From a virus, in the IMG/VR virus record IMGVR_UViG_3300009548_000035, positions 1-21,210 of that record: a DNA stretch of 21,210 nt. The stretch is one strand, 5' to 3'. Shown one piece after another: positions 4,901-14,484 of this stretch. Position numbers and translations under genes: made by a program. Position 1 is the first letter of the stretch; the number at the start of each line of letters is the position of its first letter. The notes beneath the pieces are model-generated. The model did no database searches and had not been told where the DNA came from. It saw only the letters and a list, made by a program, of their open reading frames with translations.

Positions 4901-5957
4901 GCTCATTTGCCGCCGCTTTTGCTTGAGCTGCGACAAGCGCTTGTTGCGTTGCGGTATCGACGGCCGCGGCATTGGCGCGAATCGCTACTGGCAACTCGCC
5001 GATATTGCCTTGCGGCTGGACCGCTGCGATGGCGTTTTGTCGCGCTGCATTTTGCTGAGCGAGACGATCGGCATATGCAGCTTTGCCTTCGGGAGATTCC
5101 GCAACCGCCTTCTCATAAGCGATTAAGCCGGTATCTCCCGCCATTGGGCCAAGAGTGCCTTGCGAACCGGGAATAATTTCACGTGGCGCGGTTTCCAGCG
5201 CGGCCATCGCTGCTGGCGCATTCGTTGCACTCGTTGTCAATTCCTGGCCTACTTGTCGTCGCGCGGCGGCAATCTGACCTGCTTCTGTGATCGCCGGCAA
5301 TCCCGCCGCTACAGCGCGAACGCCTTGTGCGGCCAGAAGAGGAGCGCCAAGCGCAACCGTGGGGGCCAATATTCCGCCGGCAACCCCGGCGAGTGGCTTG
5401 TACTTATCTGGGGCCACATCGGCGGCAAGCTGTCCGCCCGCGCCAGAAACTGCGCCAACGCCGGCATTCGTCGCCAATCCCGCACCTGTCGCCTCGCCGA
5501 CGTATGGCGCGGCGGCGGCAAGCGCTCTTTCTCCTAGCGATGCAGCACCGCCAACTGGGATTATAGCGCTCGCGGCGCCCGCCCCGGCTCCCTGTAACGC
5601 GCTTTCTAATTCGTTATGGATCGGAAGCGGAGTAGGCAACGCATGTTTTTCAATCCATTCCGAACCGAGGAACGGCGCTGGAGCATTCTCACCGGACGGA
5701 TAAATCCCGGCCTTTTTCATCGCCCATGTGGCAAGATCGACGGGCGCGCCAATAGTCTGCGCAACGCCACGATTGAACCCCGACGCCACGCTCGCAGCGC
5801 CATAAGGGATCGTCGTACCGCTCGGCGCATTGTCATTTGTCGCTACTTTGTCGAATTGATCGAAAGGATTTGCGGCAATGGCAGGCGCAGCGGTTGCCCC
5901 AGCCGAAGGGCCGCTATCGAATTGATCAAACGGATTTGCGGCTGCGTCGGCCATCAT
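1956..5957 (-). CDS. Very large internal virion / DNA ejection protein with peptidase-like domain, 1333 aa
   Basis: By size and position, after the transglycosylase protein and before the tail fibre, this is the largest ejection (pilot) protein, playing the role of P22 gp16. Its ATG overlaps the previous stop as ATGA, with no strong Shine-Dalgarno, so translation is probably coupled. The N-terminus carries NPFDQFD twice (residues 8-14 and 30-36). Residues ~115-230 are a Gly/Ala-rich hydrophobic region that could enter membrane. Residues ~290-470 and most of 800-1250 are Ala/Gln/Lys-rich helical sequence. Residues ~655-780 form a compact domain with YLMVHELRENHE, then YETAHRAALNVE, then LYTKPYPHNEAEF, resembling an HE..E / AH..A...E putative zinc-peptidase-like domain known from phage proteins. 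The C-terminus has another Gly-rich hydrophobic segment (VDAALAGAGHVVGGLPGLV). The ejection role is inferred. Confidence 0.8.
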   Translation of the reverse strand: MMADAAANPFDQFDSGPSAGATAAPAIAANPFDQFDKVATNDNAPSGTTIPYGAASVASGFNRGVAQTIGAPVDLATWAMKKAGIYPSGENAPAPFLGSEWIEKHALPTPLPIHNELESALQGAGAGAASAIIPVGGAASLGERALAAAAPYVGEATGAGLATNAGVGAVSGAGGQLAADVAPDKYKPLAGVAGGILAPTVALGAPLLAAQGVRAVAAGLPAITEAGQIAAARRQVGQELTTSATNAPAAMAALETAPREIIPGSQGTLGPMAGDTGLIAYEKAVAESPEGKAAYADRLAQQNAARQNAIAAVQPQGNIGELPVAIRANAAAVDTATQQALVAAQAKAAANEQLVGDVTQSHVEGAQQAQQSALANIQALKPDASPLETAMQFRAMRDAVEQESAKNVNAAQGAAAQARSMSAPIAQNPEQVGGALRAPVQAANVSAQDATTALYNALPKDMVAPTADIAAKANAIQSAQLPEHSPISGEEARLYGLAQDYGDTMPLANVNALRGSILTARSTLRQSDPQAFGRLGQLQGVVEGAVDHAVENRAALDQIAARRGVISPQSTVQGKLEKVRNVLNAPSESTAAVAPRQSGIGPGPGRSESGNVSGAPSVGSENGRLGMPSGNQSIPAGTGANAPGIAGVGARSIAVDNSHDIPYLAGSSNDGKTVYIDRRVPATMTVGDKTFDPRKYLMVHELRENHEMTINGQPYETAHRAALNVEKAAVEGDGINWNGYQEQMQKMAAQTQRESPTNPPSDLYTKPYPHNEAEFLKHEAEAHVGAPTPLAAEGEATAAPLRQANAAYREMKQTFGEGAVGDVLAKTGRGEPKLSNAEVAGQFLHGRQTEGEDVRGYLKAAGPQGIPAMSDAAAYSLHEAATRPDGTFDAAKAAKWIDDHKLALNELPADVRSKFENAANAQQAVGDALAKQRDTMSNFNKSEAGTIAGLGHEGDIVKHVGSIIDSKTAPEQRLAQLADAAKTNPSAQDGLKRAVIEHVLNKFVPEGAEPKTDALQTYLGIKGPILSKVLSPDELRAVSDRVAAASAAKVGVEAAQTGRAEGLKGVQQAGKEAVGAAAQARAEALSKYDRGVLGQLKGVNAEGDILNTMRGVLNAKDGAAKMQMIASEAAKVPGASDALKKAVTEVIKRDFSSTTEAGVSGQMELRRAGLKSFMDTKTDALKAAGLSDQQIGLLRAVTEDGLQANRTVSAIKSKGGSDTLANQAMAAKLAQSGKGSMMSHIAVDAALAGAGHVVGGLPGLVIGKYIGDKVMGAMRESGMNRVRQLRSEAVLNPDLGLALMKELPRQPNRDTAALLGLRLRQMSTAGMLANQQH

Positions 5958-8566
5958 TGACCCGTGTAATAGCGTGAGAGATCAGGACCATATTTGGCGT
6001 CGAACTGCGACGTGAGTTTGGGATTTTTCTGCAAGAATTCAATTGCGGCCTGCGGAATGGCCGCCAATGCACGGGCTTCCTGAACGTACTTCGATGGCGG
6101 ATTTGCGCGATTGAACGCAAGATCGGCATCTGGCGCATTGCCATTGGCCGAAAGGAACGAATAGAAATCCTTCTGCCGTTGCAATCCCGCATTGATCGCC
6201 GCCGCGACCGTTCGCGCGCCCTGCGGTGTGTTTTGAATGCCAGGATTGAGAGAAATAGCCTGTTGAACGATTTGCGCGGCCTCGCGAGCGCCAAGCGTCC
6301 GGCTCATATCGAAGCCGAGACCGCCGTTGATTTTCTGCGCATTCTCAGCGGCGGAGATTTGATTTGGATCAAATGCCGGCGATGCGCCGACACCGGTCAG
6401 AAGCGTATTGACGTACTTGGCCAAACCGAGACGTTCCGTTGCACCGGAACCAGGTGTCAACAAGCTCGCCCCCGTTGGCAATTGATCAAGCGAATGTTGC
6501 AACTCGCCGAGTTTCATTTGAGCCGTCGATGCAGTTTGATATGCCTCTTTGGCCTCTCCGAATTGCTTCACTTGCGCTTCTGCGACGCCGCGCCCCGTCG
6601 CTTCCTGCGCGGCCTTTTGGGCCAAGGTCATGGCCGGTTGCATCGTTGACCAGCCTTGCGGCGCGGCTAATGGCGTCGTGCTGTCGGCGGCAAGCCCTGT
6701 AGGAGCGGCGGTAACGCCCGACGCAGCGGTTGCCGCTGTAGCCGCCGTGGGGATCACAGGCGGAGCGCCGGGAGGCGACGTTGGCGCTCCCGGTAACGGC
6801 GCGGGCGGCGACGGCACGATCGGAGCCACGCCGTTTTGTGCAGGAATTGGAGCGAGCGGATTATTTCCTTTGAGATTTGCAGGAAAAGAAAGCGCGGCCG
6901 CTTGCTCCAATGTGCCCGGCGCTCCTGGCTGGATAAAACCGCCTGGAACTGAACCGCCGGGTTGAGCCAAAGGCGCGCCCTGCGCCATAACTGCGCCTTC
7001 CGAGGGCGTCGCGCCATTGGCGGTTAGACCATTGCCGAAATTCCGCGTCATCACGGCGTAGACTTGGCTCAGCGTCCGCGGCTGAGACCCGGCATAAAAG
7101 ATCGTCGGATTTTGCTTAGCCTCAGCGGGGAACAGCGCCGCAGCGTCAGCGTTTGGGTCTGCCGCTCCAGCCTGTATGAATTTCGCCGCACCGCCAGCGC
7201 CGAGAAAATGCGCCATGAAGAGATTTTTGTCGTTGACGGCAACTCCCGAGCCGGCGAGCGCCTTGGCATTGTCAGCCGTGAATGCCTGCATGGCTTTTGC
7301 AGCTTGTGCGGGGTCCGTCGCGCCATTCGCGGTCAATCCGAGTTCCGGATGCTGTTGCATCAATGTGCGCCATGTTCCCGGCATGAACTGATAAAGTCCC
7401 GCCGCACCACCATTCGGATTGACAATTCCAGGAACATTTCCACTTTCATGCGCCGAAACGACGCCATAATAATTTGGGCCGTTCGCGGCAGGCGCAGCGC
7501 TCAGCGCAGCCGTCGGCGCAAAACTATTTGCCGCGACGGGAGCTGCTAATGGCTGAACTGGACGCGCATTTGGGCCGCTAGATGGATTGACGATTGCCGC
7601 GGGAAGAGCGGGCATAGCCGTAGGCGCGCCACTTTGCGCCATGATCGGCAGTGCGTTTGGCCCTCCCGGCGCGGCAGGGGCGGCGCTCGATAACCCCGGC
7701 GCGGCGCCGAACGGCGCGGGCGCGCCGCCTGGACGTGCGATGTTCGCCAATCCGGGCGGCAGAAAGACGCCCTGTTGCGGTTCGGTTACGATCGGCTTGT
7801 AATTGGCCGTAGCCGCCGCCCCAGCTGCCGCCGCCCCCCCCGAGACTTCGGCGTAATCCTTCGACGCCATACCAGCCGCCTGCCAGGATTTGGCGATCGT
7901 GGCGAACTGCCCATCGGACAGTTGGCTTTCCTGTTGCGCCTGTTGCGGCGTAATCAATCCCGCTTTGATGGCCTGTTGCAACGCATTCTGGCGAATCTCC
8001 GGAGGAATGCTCCCATCCGCTCCTATCCCAGAGACAACGCCATTTCCGATCTGACCCATGATGGTGGCGCGTTGGATTGCCGTTTCACCCCCCGTCTTGA
8101 TCGCATTCATTGCCGTGCTGTACCCCTCGGCGCCAGCTCCGCGTAATGCATTTGGATCGCCTGTGGCGGCGAATTGCTGATTGGCCTGCGTCGTCATGCC
8201 TTGCTGCACAACTCCGGGCCCCATGATCGCGAGACTATTCGGATCGCCGCTGGTGGCATAGGCCGCACTCGCTTTCAATGCCCGTGCGGTCTGGATATTA
8301 CCGAGGATAGCGTTAGCGCCGGGCGCATCGGTCGCGGCGAGATTGCTGCTTTGCAGAGCATCGATTGGATCGGTTCCGGCCGCCACTGCCGAACCGTAAT
8401 CACGAAGGGACTGCACCTTCTGGCCAAGAAACGCCGCATTGGCCTGCGCGACTCCAGTTTGGGCCGCGAGATATTGAAGCTGCGCAAGCGAGCTGATCTG
8501 CCCGATGACATCAGGAGCCTTGGTGGGCTGAACTCCTAAAGCGATGGAATCGTTAATATCCGGCAT
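5954..8566 (-). CDS. Ejection protein with internal lytic transglycosylase domain, 870 aa
   Basis: Residues ~364-512 carry a soluble lytic transglycosylase-type fold: YYGVVSAHESGN with the likely catalytic Glu374, then GGAAGLYQFMPGTWRTL (the family's GLMQ/GLYQFM-like block), and a later AMQAFTADNA helix. Such domains cut peptidoglycan so that the ejected proteins and DNA can cross the cell wall. The ~360 residues before it are Ala/Gln-rich and helical. The domain is flanked by Pro/Ala/Gly-rich linkers (~residues 256-362 and 520-640), and the C-terminal ~200 residues are helical again (LGFDMSRTLGAREAAQIVQ). Start: ATG one base after the upstream TAA, with AGGA nearby. The stop overlaps the next gene's ATG. 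The combination of position, size and domain makes a virion-associated ejection protein the best call. Confidence 0.88.
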   Translation of the reverse strand: MPDINDSIALGVQPTKAPDVIGQISSLAQLQYLAAQTGVAQANAAFLGQKVQSLRDYGSAVAAGTDPIDALQSSNLAATDAPGANAILGNIQTARALKASAAYATSGDPNSLAIMGPGVVQQGMTTQANQQFAATGDPNALRGAGAEGYSTAMNAIKTGGETAIQRATIMGQIGNGVVSGIGADGSIPPEIRQNALQQAIKAGLITPQQAQQESQLSDGQFATIAKSWQAAGMASKDYAEVSGGAAAAGAAATANYKPIVTEPQQGVFLPPGLANIARPGGAPAPFGAAPGLSSAAPAAPGGPNALPIMAQSGAPTAMPALPAAIVNPSSGPNARPVQPLAAPVAANSFAPTAALSAAPAANGPNYYGVVSAHESGNVPGIVNPNGGAAGLYQFMPGTWRTLMQQHPELGLTANGATDPAQAAKAMQAFTADNAKALAGSGVAVNDKNLFMAHFLGAGGAAKFIQAGAADPNADAAALFPAEAKQNPTIFYAGSQPRTLSQVYAVMTRNFGNGLTANGATPSEGAVMAQGAPLAQPGGSVPGGFIQPGAPGTLEQAAALSFPANLKGNNPLAPIPAQNGVAPIVPSPPAPLPGAPTSPPGAPPVIPTAATAATAASGVTAAPTGLAADSTTPLAAPQGWSTMQPAMTLAQKAAQEATGRGVAEAQVKQFGEAKEAYQTASTAQMKLGELQHSLDQLPTGASLLTPGSGATERLGLAKYVNTLLTGVGASPAFDPNQISAAENAQKINGGLGFDMSRTLGAREAAQIVQQAISLNPGIQNTPQGARTVAAAINAGLQRQKDFYSFLSANGNAPDADLAFNRANPPSKYVQEARALAAIPQAAIEFLQKNPKLTSQFDAKYGPDLSRYYTGQ

Positions 8567-8567
8567 T

Positions 8568-9416
8568 TTACGATCCTATCCCAAGGCTGGACAATAGGCC
8601 GCTCGTCTGATTTTCCGTCCCGAGATAATTGTTCACATTTGTGCTGTATGCGCTCATGAGATTGTTCGCGCCGCCGAGATTTCCGCTGAGCGCGCCAAGC
8701 AAGAGCGGCGTCGTCACGCTTCCCGCAGCACCCGTCAGCGCCGACGATAAGGCATTCGCCGACCCCACCGTGCCGGAAGCCTGAGCTTGTCCAATCGCCT
8801 GTTGCGAATTGGCCTGCGAATTGCCAGCGTTAAGCGAATTGCTCGCCGTCCCCGCCGCCGCGCTCTGTCCGATCTGAGACAAGGAGAGCAGTCGGCTGAA
8901 ATAATTTCCAAATTGCTGCGATGCGAGGCCTTGGCCATATTGCTGAGCGGCCTTGACCTGGCCGCCAGATTGTAGATTCCCTGAAGCAGCGGCCGACCGA
9001 TCAAGCGCTTGCATTCCCTGCTGAAAAGCGAATTGATAATCTGGAGACTTAGTGAAATTTGTCATCGCCGCATTGATGGCGCTCTGGCCCCCGGCGCTCG
9101 AAACGGTCGCATTGACGTTTCCTGGGGTTACAACTCCAGTCGATGACGTAGTCGGGGCCGCGCTGCCCGTCGCGTTGTAGGCGATGCCGTAGAGATTGGC
9201 CAAGCTATTGGTAGCGCCCGTCCCGACCTGATTGTAAGGAGCGAGGGCGGCGAGCGACGTGTTCTCCGCCGAGACTTGCGTGTTCAGCGCATTCTGCGCA
9301 GCCGTGGCTTGCTCGCCAGCGGCCTTCGACGCCGCGTTAGAGCCGATCAGACCAGAGGCGAGCGACGCCGCTCCACCAATCGCCGAAGCGCCGAGAATTG
9401 CCGCCCCAACGCCCAT
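8568..9416 (-). CDS. Small Ala/Gly-rich DNA-transfer (ejection) protein, 282 aa
   Basis: The N-terminus is a glycine-zipper-like hydrophobic stretch (GAAILGASAIGGAASLASGL) followed by an Ala/Gln/Asn helical region (SKAAGEQATAAQNALNTQ) and a 'APYNQVGTGATNSL' segment. This layout is common in the first ejection protein of P22-like phages (gp7-like) and in related podovirus 'DNA transfer' proteins. The remainder is Ser/Gln/Ala-rich with low hydrophobicity. It is first in a run of three ejection-type genes, its ATG directly follows the TAA of the preceding gene, and a strong GAGGAGG lies five bases upstream. Function is assigned from composition and position, not from a catalytic motif. Confidence 0.75.
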   Translation of the reverse strand: MGVGAAILGASAIGGAASLASGLIGSNAASKAAGEQATAAQNALNTQVSAENTSLAALAPYNQVGTGATNSLANLYGIAYNATGSAAPTTSSTGVVTPGNVNATVSSAGGQSAINAAMTNFTKSPDYQFAFQQGMQALDRSAAASGNLQSGGQVKAAQQYGQGLASQQFGNYFSRLLSLSQIGQSAAAGTASNSLNAGNSQANSQQAIGQAQASGTVGSANALSSALTGAAGSVTTPLLLGALSGNLGGANNLMSAYSTNVNNYLGTENQTSGLLSSLGIGS

Positions 9417-10493
9417 TTAGGCCTCCTCAAGGGAAAGACGATATATTTCACCATCATGCGCCGCTCCAAGGCGCTGGTAAAGAACGCCTGTTCGAGGCCC
9501 AGAACCTCGTGGACCAGCGCGAAAGAAAACCTCGCTTACGCCGCGTCGCCGCAACGGCGGCAGCGCAGCTCGTTGCAACTTCAAGCCGAGGCCAGGAAAT
9601 TCCGACGAAGCAAAAAACGCCGTGTGAATTGCGGATCGGATCGTCGTCGATTCAAGCGACGGACAGAGGATCGTCATGAGATAACCGAACATTCGTCCAT
9701 TGGATCGAGCCGTAACGATTTGCATGTCGTCACGTTGCTCGATTGCCCGCATGACTGGAATGTTCTTTTGCAGGAAAGAATCTGGAGATTCCCCGACGGC
9801 GCAGGAATGCTCGGCGAAAAGTCGCGCGCCATCGCGAAGAAAGACATCGAATCGTTCTTCTGCGATCGTAACGCCATTCGGGACCACGACCGGATGTCCC
9901 GCCATATCGGCGAGGATGACTTGCTTTGCTTGCGCCGCCAGTCTAGCCATTTGCGGCGCATAAGCACGGGCGTAGCGGACCATTGCCGGCATTGAGCACT
10001 GAATATTGATCGAAGCGAGAGAAGCCCACCATGCGCCATCGTAGGGCATTTGCAGGCAATGCTCGAAAAGACGAACGCAAGTTCTTTCGTCGGCCAATTC
10101 ATCAAATCGGATAGAAAGCGCATTCGTAACGCGACGTTCGATCTGATCAAGTTTCGCATCCAAGCGCATTATTTGCTCTGCCAACGCACGGCGATCGAAC
10201 GAAAAGACGCCCTGCATATCAAGCGCCATGACGCTATCGACAACTTCCGGAACAGGTCGCCGGACAACGGCGACGTGAAGATCGGAACGGTATTTCATCA
10301 CCAAGCGCCACCATGGCGCAGCGTTTGTTTCGACGGTTCCTGTGTAATTTTGCGAAAACCATGCCTTTACATCGTCGAGCGAACGCATATGGCGCAGTTC
10401 ATCATGGCCGCAATTCCATTCGCGATAACTTAGAAACCGTGACAGCCAAGCCGTCCGGCTTCTTGGTAGAGCGAACACGATGAATGGCCGCAC
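9417..10493 (-). CDS. Sulfotransferase-like / GNAT-like fusion protein, 358 aa
   Basis: Two halves can be seen. Residues 4-20 (FIVFALPRSRTAWLSRF) match the 5'-phosphosulfate-binding P-loop at the start of sulfotransferases (PRSGTTWL in the family). Residues ~74-90 (VAVVRRPVPEVVDSV) resemble the 3'-phosphate-binding R-x-P...S motif. The C-terminal ~120 residues look like a GNAT acyltransferase: a strand-rich start with GRMFGYLMTIL, then FPGLGLKLQRAALPPLRRRG in the position of the acetyl-CoA loop and helix, then RLGAAHDGEIYRLSL at the end. The typical R/Q-x-x-G-x-G/A signature is only approximate. The start is GTG with GGAG nine bases upstream. It lies between a second GNAT-like gene and the ejection genes. 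The target of either activity is unknown. Confidence 0.7.
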   Translation of the reverse strand: MRPFIVFALPRSRTAWLSRFLSYREWNCGHDELRHMRSLDDVKAWFSQNYTGTVETNAAPWWRLVMKYRSDLHVAVVRRPVPEVVDSVMALDMQGVFSFDRRALAEQIMRLDAKLDQIERRVTNALSIRFDELADERTCVRLFEHCLQMPYDGAWWASLASINIQCSMPAMVRYARAYAPQMARLAAQAKQVILADMAGHPVVVPNGVTIAEERFDVFLRDGARLFAEHSCAVGESPDSFLQKNIPVMRAIEQRDDMQIVTARSNGRMFGYLMTILCPSLESTTIRSAIHTAFFASSEFPGLGLKLQRAALPPLRRRGVSEVFFRAGPRGSGPRTGVLYQRLGAAHDGEIYRLSLEEA

Positions 10494-10496
10494 TGC

Positions 10497-11270
10497 TTAA
10501 TGCTCCGTTTTTGAAGCGAGCGAGAAAATAAAGAAATGACTGCCGTGCAATTCCAACACGCAATCGCCGATGTCGATCATCAATGGTTCTCGATTGACGA
10601 TTGCAATCGGGCTTCGGTTCGCCATTGCCGCCCACCGATTATAGAAAACCGCGCCCTTGTCGGGCTGTCCGCATCGGATCATCTCGACGGCGCAACCGAC
10701 AAAACGGTCTCCGGCCTCGTCAACGTCGCGAACCGCGCGCGGCGCGCTGAGACGTTCATACTCCGCATCGATGCCGGTCCGATAGGACGCGCCGATCTCC
10801 GTCATTTCTCGTGCGGCGAGCATCCAATCCTGAATGACGAGCGAATAGATATCGGCGTAGATGATCTCGCCGTCCATAATCCAGCCGCGCTCGGCGCGAA
10901 ATTGAAACTTGGCTCCGATCGCTTCGACAAGCGCTTTGGCCGCGTCGAAACCTTTTGGCGCCCGAATGAGAATTTCGACGGCTTCGGTATGCGTAAAAGC
11001 CCATGCCAAGGCGGCACGAGCCATCTCTACGGTCCATGCTCCACGACCCCGCGGAAGCGCCTGGACATGAGCCTCGTAAATTCCCGGCTGCTGCTGATCG
11101 AGAATGACCCCTCCCCATTGTCCAAGCAGCGCAACATTGCGATCATCGGCAAGAGGAAGCGTTAGATCAAGCGGCCCTTCGCTTTGACCATGCACGAATG
11201 GATAGATCGACGGATCATTGATGATCTCGTTAATCCTGACCGCATCCGTCGCCCTGACGAGGCTGATCAT
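10497..11270 (-). CDS. GNAT-fold (acyltransferase-like) phage protein, 257 aa
   Basis: The N-terminal half fits a GNAT acyltransferase: an opening MISLVRATDAVRINEIINDP, strand GGVILDQQQPGIYEAHVQAL, then PRGRGAWTVEMARAALAWAF (acetyl-CoA loop plus helix, with R-G-R-G), strand VEILIRAPKGFDAAKALVEA, and GAKFQFRAERGWI. Proteins of this look are frequent in podovirus late operons near the tail-hub genes. The C-terminal ~120 residues (from IQDWMLAAREM) are less familiar and include a Cys-containing beta-rich end. The ATG overlaps the preceding stop as ATGA. Whether it is an active enzyme or a structural use of the fold cannot be decided from sequence. Confidence 0.7.
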   Translation of the reverse strand: MISLVRATDAVRINEIINDPSIYPFVHGQSEGPLDLTLPLADDRNVALLGQWGGVILDQQQPGIYEAHVQALPRGRGAWTVEMARAALAWAFTHTEAVEILIRAPKGFDAAKALVEAIGAKFQFRAERGWIMDGEIIYADIYSLVIQDWMLAAREMTEIGASYRTGIDAEYERLSAPRAVRDVDEAGDRFVGCAVEMIRCGQPDKGAVFYNRWAAMANRSPIAIVNREPLMIDIGDCVLELHGSHFFIFSLASKTEH

Positions 11271-11581
11271 TTATTCCCCCATCCCACTTTAAGTCCGGAA
11301 GAAGATTCCTTAACCCAAAGCGTTTGTCCGGAACCGCCATTCGTATTCACATAGAGATCGCCGATGTTACCAGCAACACGGCCGTTTGGCGAGCCAGAAC
11401 CGGCACTTATCGTCACGCCGTTTCCTAACACATTTTGCGATACTCCGCTCGCTGTCGTGCCGTTGATCGCCGCGCAGATGTTTGTCAGAAAGCGAAACGC
11501 CTGCGCGGTCAAGACGAGCGATTGCGCGGCGCCGGCTTGGACGAAAGCAATCGTGGCGTTCGGAGGAATGATCGCAGCCAT
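11267..11581 (-). CDS. Small structural protein, fibre-tip-like, 104 aa
   Basis: The N-terminal half (IPPNATIAFVQAGAAQSLVL, then a helix AFRFLTNICAAING) is followed by a beta-type C-terminus with GSPNGRVAGNIGDLYVNTNG and TLWVKESSSGLKVGW. The G-x-x-GDLY...-LWVKE...GW pattern recurs at the ends of many phage tail and fibre proteins. It directly follows the gp10-like hub gene, sharing one base (TAATG), and overlaps the next ATG by four bases. This is the slot of the P22 tail needle gp26, but the protein is less than half that length and lacks an extended coiled coil, so identity with the needle is not supported. Confidence 0.7.
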   Translation of the reverse strand: MAAIIPPNATIAFVQAGAAQSLVLTAQAFRFLTNICAAINGTTASGVSQNVLGNGVTISAGSGSPNGRVAGNIGDLYVNTNGGSGQTLWVKESSSGLKVGWGNK

Positions 11582-13518
11582 TAAACCTCCTCCAAATCGG
11601 CCGTGATGAATGTATCGATGAAATTTCTCGGGACGGGATCGGAAATCGTGACCCTAAACCGCCAATCCCGCGCCTTCCCCATTTTCTTCCAAATCAAGCG
11701 CGTCGCATAAGCGCCGATCGCTCCCAAGCTTTGCCACATCTGGAAAAGTCCATAGGTGCGTCCTTGATCGCGCGAGACCTGCAGCATGACCTGTGGATTT
11801 GCTCCTTGTCCCGTTTGAAGCCCGACGCCAGTCTCCATGTTGATTTCCAACTTCGAAATGAACACCCGTTTTCGGTCCTTGTGAACCGGCGGCGAATCCA
11901 TCAATCCGATCATCGGCGAGCCGAACTCGGTGTACGTCGTATCCGAGAGATAGCCGATCTGGCCGCTCATAGAATCTCCAATCAAGGTCTGTTCGTTGAA
12001 TACGACCGAACAATTTCCTCGCCAGCGTCCAGAAAACGGCGTCGCGGCGACATAGGAAACACGCTCATGCCATAGATTTGACGCAATATCGAATATCCAA
12101 GTCGCATTGGCGCTTGGGAAGGTAACGACAATGAATTTATGTCCACCAAATGTATATGAGAATACGTTAGCGTCTGAAATCAATAGATACGTCGCCCATG
12201 TCTTTTCTATTGCAAACGTGCTCATCCGCCTCAATAGCACTCCGTCCAAGCGATATAATATCAAATCGTTACCAAGAAAGAATACGGCATTGTCTTCCTT
12301 GACTATTGCCAATGACGCCGCGCATCCTCTCTCGATCGTCGCACCGTCATAACGTGAAAACGGATCGTTGTTCGCTCCGGTATCGTACCATGTTTCGATC
12401 GATCTCTGCTTAAATATCAACAAGTTTTCCTGTTGATTGACTGTAGCCAGCACATAACTGGAATCGACCTCGGCTGTGTTATAGTCCAAGGCGTTATATG
12501 TGGTTCCGTCAAGAATGGCGGAATAAAACCATTGATTTGTACCAGCCCAATCTAAGACGAAATATTCGTCATAGAACGTTACCGTATTGGCAGCGTTGAA
12601 ATTTGCGTTCTCAGAGATGTTTGTAAACCCAAGAGGAGGACCACCCCACGTCATCGTAAATTCCGCGCCGTTTCCAACTCCCGTCGTCGAAATCTCATTT
12701 GCCGGATTAGGAGGCGTCTCGCTATATTGTCCCGCCGTGCTGATATCCACGCTTTCAATCGCCCCATTGCCCACTGCCGTGACCTCGAGGACTAATTGCG
12801 TCGTCGAGGTTCCTCCAGCAATTGGGATGGTGTCGCCGACTTGATAGTTGGCCCCCCCGAAGACGAGCGCCGCTGTCGAGGCAACGTAGGGGCTTGTCGA
12901 ACCCCATGTAATATCAAAAATTGCTCCGCTGCCTTGCCCGGACGTGCTTGCTTGACTGACTGGATTAGAGGGGAGCACCGTATAAGAACCGGCGACATAA
13001 ATTGCAATTTCCGAAATGGGGGCAAGAACGCTATCGACTTGCAGGATCGCGGCGGTCGAGTAGATTCCCCCTCCGATCGTCACTTGATCGCCAACCGCAA
13101 AATCGCTTCCGCCATTTACTGGAACGGCGGCCGTTGCGTAAAATGTCGATTTCGGCGCATAAACCCATCCTCCGACGCCATTGACAATCTCGACCTGGAA
13201 TCCATTATTGGCCATCGACACGACGCCAAAGCCCTCTATGCCAGTACCCAGACGCGTGACGATGCCAGCGACGCTAACCGAATACAGTGCATTTCCCGAA
13301 ACAACGTAAAGCACGTTGTTCATTACGTTGGCGCCGCGGATTGGACCGTTGCCGACGGTCACCCATGGTAGAATTCCAGGGCTGGCCAAAACCGAAATTG
13401 TGTCTTTGGCGTCCTGTGGTTCGCGCTCAGCATAATAATTGACGCATCGTTGCGATGAAACTGGGAGCGCATCGAGCTTATAGCTCTGCGTCGCCCAAGG
13501 AATGCGAATCGGGTCCAT
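11581..13518 (-). CDS. P22 gp10-like tail hub / DNA-stabilisation protein with duplicated insert, 645 aa
   Basis: The N-terminal ~120 residues follow the gp10 family pattern: QRCVNYYAE, LASPGILPWVTVGNGPIRGA, LYVVSGNALYSV and VSMANNGFQVEIV. The core resumes near residue 297 with TVTFYDEYFVLDWAGTNQWF, ALDYNTAEVDSSYVL, SIETWYDTGANNDPF and GATIERGCAASLAIV, all typical of gp10. Between them (~122-294) is an insert built from two similar ~70-residue beta-rich units. The family seals the portal after DNA packaging and forms the hub that carries the fibres. It follows the gp4-like gene with a three-base gap, as in P22. The start ATG is preceded by codons of the adaptor's end and is supported by the conserved N-terminus. 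Confidence 0.9.
   Translation of the reverse strand: MDPIRIPWATQSYKLDALPVSSQRCVNYYAEREPQDAKDTISVLASPGILPWVTVGNGPIRGANVMNNVLYVVSGNALYSVSVAGIVTRLGTGIEGFGVVSMANNGFQVEIVNGVGGWVYAPKSTFYATAAVPVNGGSDFAVGDQVTIGGGIYSTAAILQVDSVLAPISEIAIYVAGSYTVLPSNPVSQASTSGQGSGAIFDITWGSTSPYVASTAALVFGGANYQVGDTIPIAGGTSTTQLVLEVTAVGNGAIESVDISTAGQYSETPPNPANEISTTGVGNGAEFTMTWGGPPLGFTNISENANFNAANTVTFYDEYFVLDWAGTNQWFYSAILDGTTYNALDYNTAEVDSSYVLATVNQQENLLIFKQRSIETWYDTGANNDPFSRYDGATIERGCAASLAIVKEDNAVFFLGNDLILYRLDGVLLRRMSTFAIEKTWATYLLISDANVFSYTFGGHKFIVVTFPSANATWIFDIASNLWHERVSYVAATPFSGRWRGNCSVVFNEQTLIGDSMSGQIGYLSDTTYTEFGSPMIGLMDSPPVHKDRKRVFISKLEINMETGVGLQTGQGANPQVMLQVSRDQGRTYGLFQMWQSLGAIGAYATRLIWKKMGKARDWRFRVTISDPVPRNFIDTFITADLEEV
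12643..12849 (-). repeat. Second unit of tandem beta-rich repeat inside gp10-like gene
   Basis: Codes for residues ~224-292, with NYQVGDTIPIAGG at the start, VTAVGNGAIESVDISTAGQY in the middle and NGAEFTMTWGG at the end. It aligns by eye with the preceding unit (FAVGDQVTIGGG, VAGSYTVLPSNP, SGAIFDITWG). The order of motifs is the same: VGD..-.I.GG, a V-x-x-V strand, an AG.Y...P.NP turn, and GxGA.F.-TWG. Confidence 0.65.
12901..13104 (-). repeat. First unit of tandem beta-rich repeat inside gp10-like gene
   Basis: Codes for residues ~139-206. Shared landmarks with the second unit are VGDQVTIGGG, the SEIAIYVAGSYTVLPSNPVS stretch and GQGSGAIFDITWG. Both units interrupt the otherwise recognisable gp10-type sequence, so the pair is an insertion plus duplication rather than part of the core fold. 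Confidence 0.65.
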
Positions 13519-13521
13519 GCC

Positions 13522-14484
13522 CTATCGCCCCGTCTGATCAAAATTGACGCCGAAATATACGCTCTCGGGCTCGCGGTCCCATCCCTGGACGATCTCCAAC
13601 GATTTTGCCGCCTTTGCCGCAATGACGCCCATGCGCTGCTGGCCAACGCCATATTCTGGAGCAAGTTCCTCAGCCAGATTCCAAGCAAGCGCGTTAAGCC
13701 ACTCCTGGGGAAAATCCGGCGTATCGCTCGCGTTGGCAAAATCGAGCAAAGCCGTTTGCGCCGTGAATTTCATTGCACTGAGAGAATCGGGCGGCGCTGG
13801 CCATAGCCAATTTTTGCCAATCGCCAATTGCGGGTCATAGAAATATTGCGTGATCGTTCCCGTCGAAAGCTTGTCAGGCAAGTCTCGATAATCGAGACGA
13901 GCCATGCGAATCAACGGCGTCTCGATCCCAGAGGAAAGATAAAATCGTCTCGCGTCCATAATGCGCAATGGGCGCGTGAATTTATAGGCTGGCGCGTAAT
14001 CGACGACGATCGAACCGACATTGACCGGAGAGGGCAATCCTGTCGCAATCGTGACCGCGCCTCCCGATGGGGGCGCCGTAACCGTCGTCCAAAACAGCGC
14101 GTTCGTGTACAGCAAAATCCCGATATTGTCGCCGCTGTTGATCCCGGCCGTAGAAGCGAGTGGGATCGAAGTTGCCGCGGCAAGCGCGTTGGCCGAAAGC
14201 GATGTCTGCACCCAATTCGCATCGGTGCAGCTAAAATCAGTGTTTGTCCCGCCAAGCGAATATGAAATTTGATTAGGCTGCGTGAACAGAACCCCCTCGG
14301 TTTCCGTCCAAAGATGCAACCCCGTCGCTTGCCATTCCGCCACCATAGCATTGAGCGCATCAAAGGCGTCGCTGTATTCCTGTGCGCCAGGCGTCTCGCC
14401 GGATTGGATAGCAATGCATTGGCGCAACGCGCGCCGGATGATCGTATCGACCGTGGGAGAGTATGTGCTGGACGCGATGCTCAT
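13522..14484 (-). CDS. P22 gp4-like head-to-tail adaptor protein, 320 aa
   Basis: The first ~70 residues fit the gp4 / head-completion adaptor family: TVDTIIRRALRQCIAIQSGE, then YSDAFDALNAMVAEWQATGL, a helical layout that docks on the portal ring. The middle is beta-rich (~85-160). The C-terminal part has IRMARLDYRDLPDK, YFYDPQL, LWPAPPD and LNALAWNLAEELAPEYGV, features seen in longer adaptor proteins of podoviruses infecting proteobacteria. The order adaptor then gp10-like hub is that of P22. Its ATG overlaps the preceding stop by four bases. P22 gp4 also has peptidoglycan hydrolase activity; nothing here shows that directly. Confidence 0.82.
   Translation of the reverse strand: MSIASSTYSPTVDTIIRRALRQCIAIQSGETPGAQEYSDAFDALNAMVAEWQATGLHLWTETEGVLFTQPNQISYSLGGTNTDFSCTDANWVQTSLSANALAAATSIPLASTAGINSGDNIGILLYTNALFWTTVTAPPSGGAVTIATGLPSPVNVGSIVVDYAPAYKFTRPLRIMDARRFYLSSGIETPLIRMARLDYRDLPDKLSTGTITQYFYDPQLAIGKNWLWPAPPDSLSAMKFTAQTALLDFANASDTPDFPQEWLNALAWNLAEELAPEYGVGQQRMGVIAAKAAKSLEIVQGWDREPESVYFGVNFDQTGR

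Follow-up and report, generated by a model that had tools for sequence, protein, structure and literature searches.

A sulfotransferase-like protein fused to a GNAT domain, encoded immediately upstream of the ejection gene in P22-like podoviruses

The window analysed here is the whole 21,210-nucleotide stretch of IMG/VR virus record IMGVR_UViG_3300009548_000035 (positions 1 to 21,210), and the gene under study, at 9417-10493, belongs to the late gene block of a P22-like podovirus. The gene order is head-tail adaptor, head closure protein Hc3, a 104-aa gene, a P22 gp14-like gene, the fusion gene, a gp7-like ejection protein and two large proteins. An earlier note on this DNA had called the same open reading frame, without giving its strand, and had placed it between tail-hub and ejection genes; the reading frame is borne out and lies on the minus strand, and the position agrees, with Hc3 upstream and the ejection gene directly downstream. 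The genes of the block are as follows.

13522-14484, minus strand: head-tail adaptor of the P22 gp4 / SU10 adaptor type
11581-13518, minus strand: head closure protein Hc3, P22 gp10-like (phrog_578, 4.4e-100)
11267-11581, minus strand: small 104-aa gene in the tail-needle position, judged by comparison with the position of P22 gene 26 (phrog_21909, a function-less label)
10497-11270, minus strand: P22 gp14-like gene, directly upstream of the fusion gene (phrog_651 'head morphogenesis', 1.2e-4)
9417-10493, minus strand: fusion gene with sulfotransferase-like and GNAT domains, 358 aa (ORF call, GTG start)
8568-9416, minus strand: ejection protein, P22 gp7-like, beginning at the stop of the fusion gene (phrog_598, 8.7e-34)
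5954-8566, minus strand: 870-aa protein of the ejection block, bearing a transglycosylase (SLT) domain

The GTG start of the fusion gene is preceded by GGAG and lies 3 bp past the preceding stop, while its TAA is followed at once by the ATG of the ejection gene, and the Shine-Dalgarno sequence for that ATG falls inside the fusion reading frame; no promoter or terminator belonging to the fusion gene was detected above shuffled expectation. The placement recurs among relatives. Among the matches listed, the next gene is a P22 gp7-type ejection protein in 77 of the 95 fusions with enough downstream sequence, mostly across a gap of 0-1 bp, and 64 of 76 have Hc3 no more than 2.5 kb upstream. P22 gp14 itself matched the profile of the 10497-11270 gene at 8e-8, and the product of this gene carries a C-terminal extension of about 100 aa that is absent from P22 gp14. 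A GNAT fold for the same product looked likely by eye but is not proposed here, as its profile matched no GNAT structure in the PDB. Hc3 is 645 aa long here, compared with roughly 450-520 aa in many relatives, and there is a weak match between its residues 221-261 and the profile of a tail-sheath domain, which suggests an inserted decoration-type domain.

Within the 358-aa protein, the following elements were delimited.

9984-10493, minus strand: sulfotransferase domain, residues 1-170 (model pLDDT 97; TPST1/TPST2 as best PDB matches; Sulfotransfer_3/4 in relatives)
10446-10475, minus strand: 5'-PSB-type P-loop FALPRSRTAW, residues 7-16, including Arg11 (sequence; Arg11 conservation)
10404-10406, minus strand: His30, candidate catalytic base (conservation in relatives)
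10233-10259, minus strand: 3'-PB-type motif RPVPEVVDS, Arg79 to Ser87 (conservation in relatives)
9885-9983, minus strand: linker, residues 171-203, mainly helical, with lower confidence near residue 200 (AlphaFold2 model)
9420-9884, minus strand: GNAT domain, residues 204-358 (fold search; Acetyltransf_1 in relatives)
9576-9593, minus strand: putative GNAT acetyl-CoA loop GLGLKL, residues 301-306 (Gly303 conservation)

The earlier note had read a sulfotransferase-type N-terminus with a P-loop, LPRSRTAWL, and a later R-x-P...S segment, followed by a GNAT-like C-terminal part, and had proposed structure prediction of the whole chain as a check. That prediction contains both folds, and the two motifs correspond to residues 9-17 and to RRPVPEVVDS (Arg79 to Ser87). 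The full-chain AlphaFold2 model, built from 26 sequences, reached pLDDT 89.1 and pTM 0.77, and the model of the N-terminal domain (67 sequences) reached pLDDT 97 and pTM 0.92. The best PDB fold matches of the N-terminal domain are the human tyrosylprotein sulfotransferases (TPST) 1 and 2 (E 6e-5 to 5e-4), with moderate TM-scores of 0.56-0.60 of the query; SULT7A1 and CurM-type sulfotransferases are also among the best matches, and other P-loop folds such as shikimate kinase score closely after the sulfotransferases. The GNAT half matched many GNATs in the PDB by fold (E about 1e-6, TM of target 0.6-0.74). Among the Pfam matches listed, Sulfotransfer_3 was matched by 45 of 91 P-loop relatives (best 1e-7) and Sulfotransfer_4 by 26 of 91, and Acetyltransf_1 was matched by 13 of 37 GNAT relatives (best 8e-9) and Acetyltransf_6 by 14 of 37. 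The fold of each half is thus assigned with near certainty.

Annotation misses the 358-aa protein because, taken alone, it falls below the Pfam cut-offs: Sulfotransfer_3 is matched at 0.039, under the curated cut-off, and the GNAT domain matched no Pfam GNAT family. In the PHROG profiles, residues 3-168 match phrog_10855 'hydrolase' (1e-9), as does the N-terminal half of all 26 aligned fusions, and residues 225-353 weakly match the acetyltransferase family phrog_1249 (0.014). NCBIfam contained no relevant family for the fusion. A sequence search of the PDB with the 358-aa protein gave no meaningful match, and direct searches returned near-identical contigs only, with no phage record matched.

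Three residues are described as essential in sulfotransferases (PMC6637879): the 5'-PSB contributes a positively charged one, the 3'-PB contributes a Ser, and a His/Glu base lies between these motifs. Their counterparts in the fusion are Arg11, Ser87 and His30. As relatives had been collected with a scan that selected LPRSRTAW, conservation was retested on 75 distinct proteins fetched by a motif of the GNAT half only. Among these matches listed, Pro10, Arg13, Trp16, His30 and Arg79 are kept in all 75, Arg11 in 74 (with one Lys) and Ser87 in 74, whereas Thr14 and Ala15 vary; an artefact of the fetching motif is thereby ruled out for Pro10, Arg11, Arg13 and Trp16. His30 is also kept in all 91 of the P-loop relatives listed. 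Loss of the Ser/Arg pocket in close homologues, which the earlier note had named as evidence against its reading, was not seen, and the residues are near-invariant. The individual roles of Arg11, His30, Arg79 and Ser87 are assigned by analogy with the sulfotransferase family, and the sulfotransferase half is predicted, with good confidence, to be catalytically competent. On the GNAT side, all 27 listed proteins fetched by the sulfotransferase half retain Gly303; GLGxKL, by analogy with the GNAT family the putative acetyl-CoA pyrophosphate loop, is strongly kept in fused forms and more variable in split forms, and the leading Q/R of the GNAT motif A pattern Q/R-x-x-G-x-G/A is not evident.

The DNA of three further contigs is near-identical to that of the window (99.9+%), and because of this near-identity they and the 358-aa fusion prove little alone. 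Viral contigs were scanned at the DNA level for [AG]LPRSRTAW and then by profile searches, with at least 120 matches; the motif scan yielded at least 26 non-redundant fusions and, besides them, split pairs on neighbouring genes and many P-loop proteins that stand alone. A second, independent scan used the motif of the GNAT half alone, and among the 99 new loci listed, 96 were fused, two were cut by the contig end and one had the halves separate. In total, at least 119 full-length fusions were found, representing at least 101 distinct proteins and at least 51 clusters at 70% identity, so that the pairing, which had been thought uncommon, proves to be a stable family in P22-like podoviruses. This number of clusters also rules out a sequencing or assembly artefact as the origin of the fusion. 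Median dN/dS over 380 pairs, calculated with a simple Nei-Gojobori script on ungapped pairs of equal length, is 0.10 for the sulfotransferase half and 0.064 for the GNAT half, values that place both halves under purifying selection and, together with the 51 clusters, make the reading frame more than a product of chance.

In other relatives the two domains are adjoining, overlapping genes in the same order as in the fusion; in one locus found via its ejection protein (L014), they are two open reading frames of 184 aa and 158 aa with a 4-bp overlap. A quickly built tree for the P-loop half grouped 25 of the 28 fusions together, with L036/L080 and L135 falling among split pairs, and its well-supported branches imply that the fused label changed at least twice, through joining or splitting. 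Several proteins labelled as standing alone in those tree groups are truncated or split and do not represent true losses. Some related podoviruses lack both halves, and the pair is therefore dispensable in general. Fusions also occur in bacterial genomes, as found by a genome scan in a 622-kb contig of an Azospirillum rugosum isolate and in MAG contigs named Sphingomonas, Beijerinckiaceae and Nevskia; the bacterial hosts are mostly alphaproteobacteria.

A third enzyme occupies the same slot in related loci, where an Asp/Asn beta-hydroxylase (PF05118, H-x-D...H) is encoded between the ejection gene and the gene for the sulfotransferase or GNAT (L159, 8422-9009; L160, 4398-4994; L119, 4070-4615; also L043, L054, L055, L077, L081 and others). 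The hydroxylase adjoins a stand-alone sulfotransferase in about 10 loci, the fusion in L119, L225 and L048 (cut off), and the GNAT in the cultured Pseudomonas fluorescens phage PfAn1. The PfAn1 gene upstream of the GNAT had been taken for a sulfotransferase, which was wrong, as it is this hydroxylase. In L225 (1136-3302), a fusion, a hydroxylase and an extra, separate GNAT follow one another ahead of the ejection gene. One neighbouring enzyme alone could be chance; the exchange of three enzyme classes capable of acting on side chains in one pre-ejection slot is what argues most strongly for a protein target.

Given the folds, the conserved motifs, the purifying selection, the place in the operon and the recurrent coupling that the analysis established, we infer both activities, a protein substrate and a virion target. 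The fusion may be a soluble, cytosolic, late-expressed, two-activity enzyme that modifies virion proteins during assembly, a proposal that in our judgement stands about an even chance of being right. In the N-terminal half, PAPS would be bound with Arg11 on the 5'-phosphosulfate and Arg79 and Ser87 on the 3'-phosphate, and His30 could act as the base for sulfation of a virion-protein side chain, plausibly tyrosine. The C-terminal GNAT domain would bind acetyl-CoA and could acetylate an amino group on that virion protein or on a neighbour of it. The best candidate targets would be the co-assembled products, namely the ejection proteins and the needle or tail-hub proteins, and the modification may alter assembly, packing or passage through the envelope. 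Of the targets named in the earlier note (host surface glycans, virion proteins or small molecules), the placement favours virion proteins and disfavours the other two. The ejection protein was scanned for a Tyr/Asp/Lys signature tracking the sulfotransferase, a comparison that involves few enzyme-free loci and is confounded by relatedness.

It is unlikely that the protein instead serves as a chaperone or scaffold for the ejection proteins, as proposed for T7 gp13, with its enzymatic folds as relics. The same place, immediately upstream of the first ejection or internal virion protein, is indeed filled in T7 by gp13 ('probable scaffold') and in P22 by gp14 ('head morphogenesis'), and a Cobavirus study that likened a GNAT encoded beside internal virion proteins to T7 gp13 suggested a part for the GNAT in virion morphogenesis (PMC6775973); relics would drift, however, whereas the catalytic and cofactor-contact residues of the sulfotransferase half are near-invariant. 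The Pfam families of P22 gp14 (DUF2824) and T7 gp13 (Phage_T7_Gp13) differ from those of the fusion, and P22 gp14 did not match the profile of the GNAT half.

Modification of the host surface appears decidedly unlikely, the pair, with or without the hydroxylase, then altering LPS, lipid A or capsule precursors in the cytosol so as to change receptors or block superinfection. Sulfotransferases and acetyltransferases act on glycans in other systems, and a surface-lipid target is conceivable because LpxO-type lipid A hydroxylases are members of the Asp/Asn hydroxylase family; the relatives in bacterial contigs, one of them from an isolate genome, also fit such a role. Typical conversion genes, however, stand apart from virion genes, whereas this gene is locked among them in stop-start contact with the ejection gene and with no promoter of its own detected, its best fold matches are peptide sulfotransferases, and no TM segment was found in the protein by a crude hydropathy check. 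Modification of small molecules or nucleic acids (detoxification, or nucleotide or DNA hypermodification) is highly improbable, for although small molecules are frequent GNAT substrates and stand-alone P-loop relatives lie close to MazG and cysteine dioxygenase genes in Casjensviridae regions that look early and metabolic, the fused and split forms lie in the virion block and not in replication or nucleotide modules. A defence-system reading was rejected, with no match to the PADLOC models.

The proposed modification of virion proteins can be compared with known systems. The N-terminal half has in common with TPST1/2 the P-loop fold, the 5'-PSB Arg, the 3'-PB Arg...Ser and a base between them, but it is much shorter (about 170 aa), has His as the candidate base, is fused to a GNAT domain and probably cytosolic, and its peptide substrate is putative; bacterial RaxST provides a functional precedent for a tyrosylprotein sulfotransferase. 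Phage proteins of the 'sulfotransferase family' (Sulfotransfer_3), as in OM43 phages (PMC10580990), BFVD A0A6J5NPC3 and Xanthomonas phage FoX4, likewise contain a phage-encoded sulfotransferase-type domain; the passages on them describe auxiliary genes and note neither a GNAT partner nor an ejection-locus position. Phage sulfotransferases are mentioned as auxiliary genes in passages of PMC10580990 and PMC8290583, and their function is called unclear in the former. The podovirus GNATs of Zobellviridae, Pam1, PfAn1 and Cobaviruses lie, like the fusion, directly after Hc3 or before the ejection protein but, unlike it, stand alone without a sulfotransferase half. No paper on a phage sulfotransferase-GNAT fusion was found in open-access full text, and no family model was found; the domains are known, and the fused architecture and its fixed position at the ejection gene appear undescribed.

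More broadly, and only tentatively, P22-like podoviruses may possess an exchangeable, often fused cassette of a tyrosine-type sulfotransferase, a GNAT and an Asp/Asn beta-hydroxylase before the ejection genes that modifies proteins co-injected with the genome. If this is true, sulfated or hydroxylated, acetylated ejection proteins would be the first of their kind. To our knowledge, protein sulfation has no known part in phage particle assembly, and the fusion, locked to the ejection genes, offers a testable place for it in the injected proteins, as well as an angle on P22 gp14 and T7 gp13, the long-unclear genes in the same position.

Stand-alone forms of the N-terminal domain are found in other phages. 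The phrog_10855 'hydrolase' proteins of Abidjanvirus-type Pseudomonas phages are an example, and the proteins called 'hydrolase' or 'nucleotide triphosphate hydrolase' in Pseudomonas phages Ab18, Ab19, PaMx11 and relatives are distantly related to the sulfotransferase-like half; the 'hydrolase' label of phrog_10855, which likely comes from proteins of this type, is probably wrong. Stand-alone P-loop sulfotransferase-like genes, annotated as 'hypothetical', are also present in early-looking regions of the Casjensviridae phages Suzuki, Clavibacter 33 and AhaSv (L025-L027), and in Clavibacter 33 and AhaSv they lie near cysteine dioxygenase, MazG-like and DNA topoisomerase genes.
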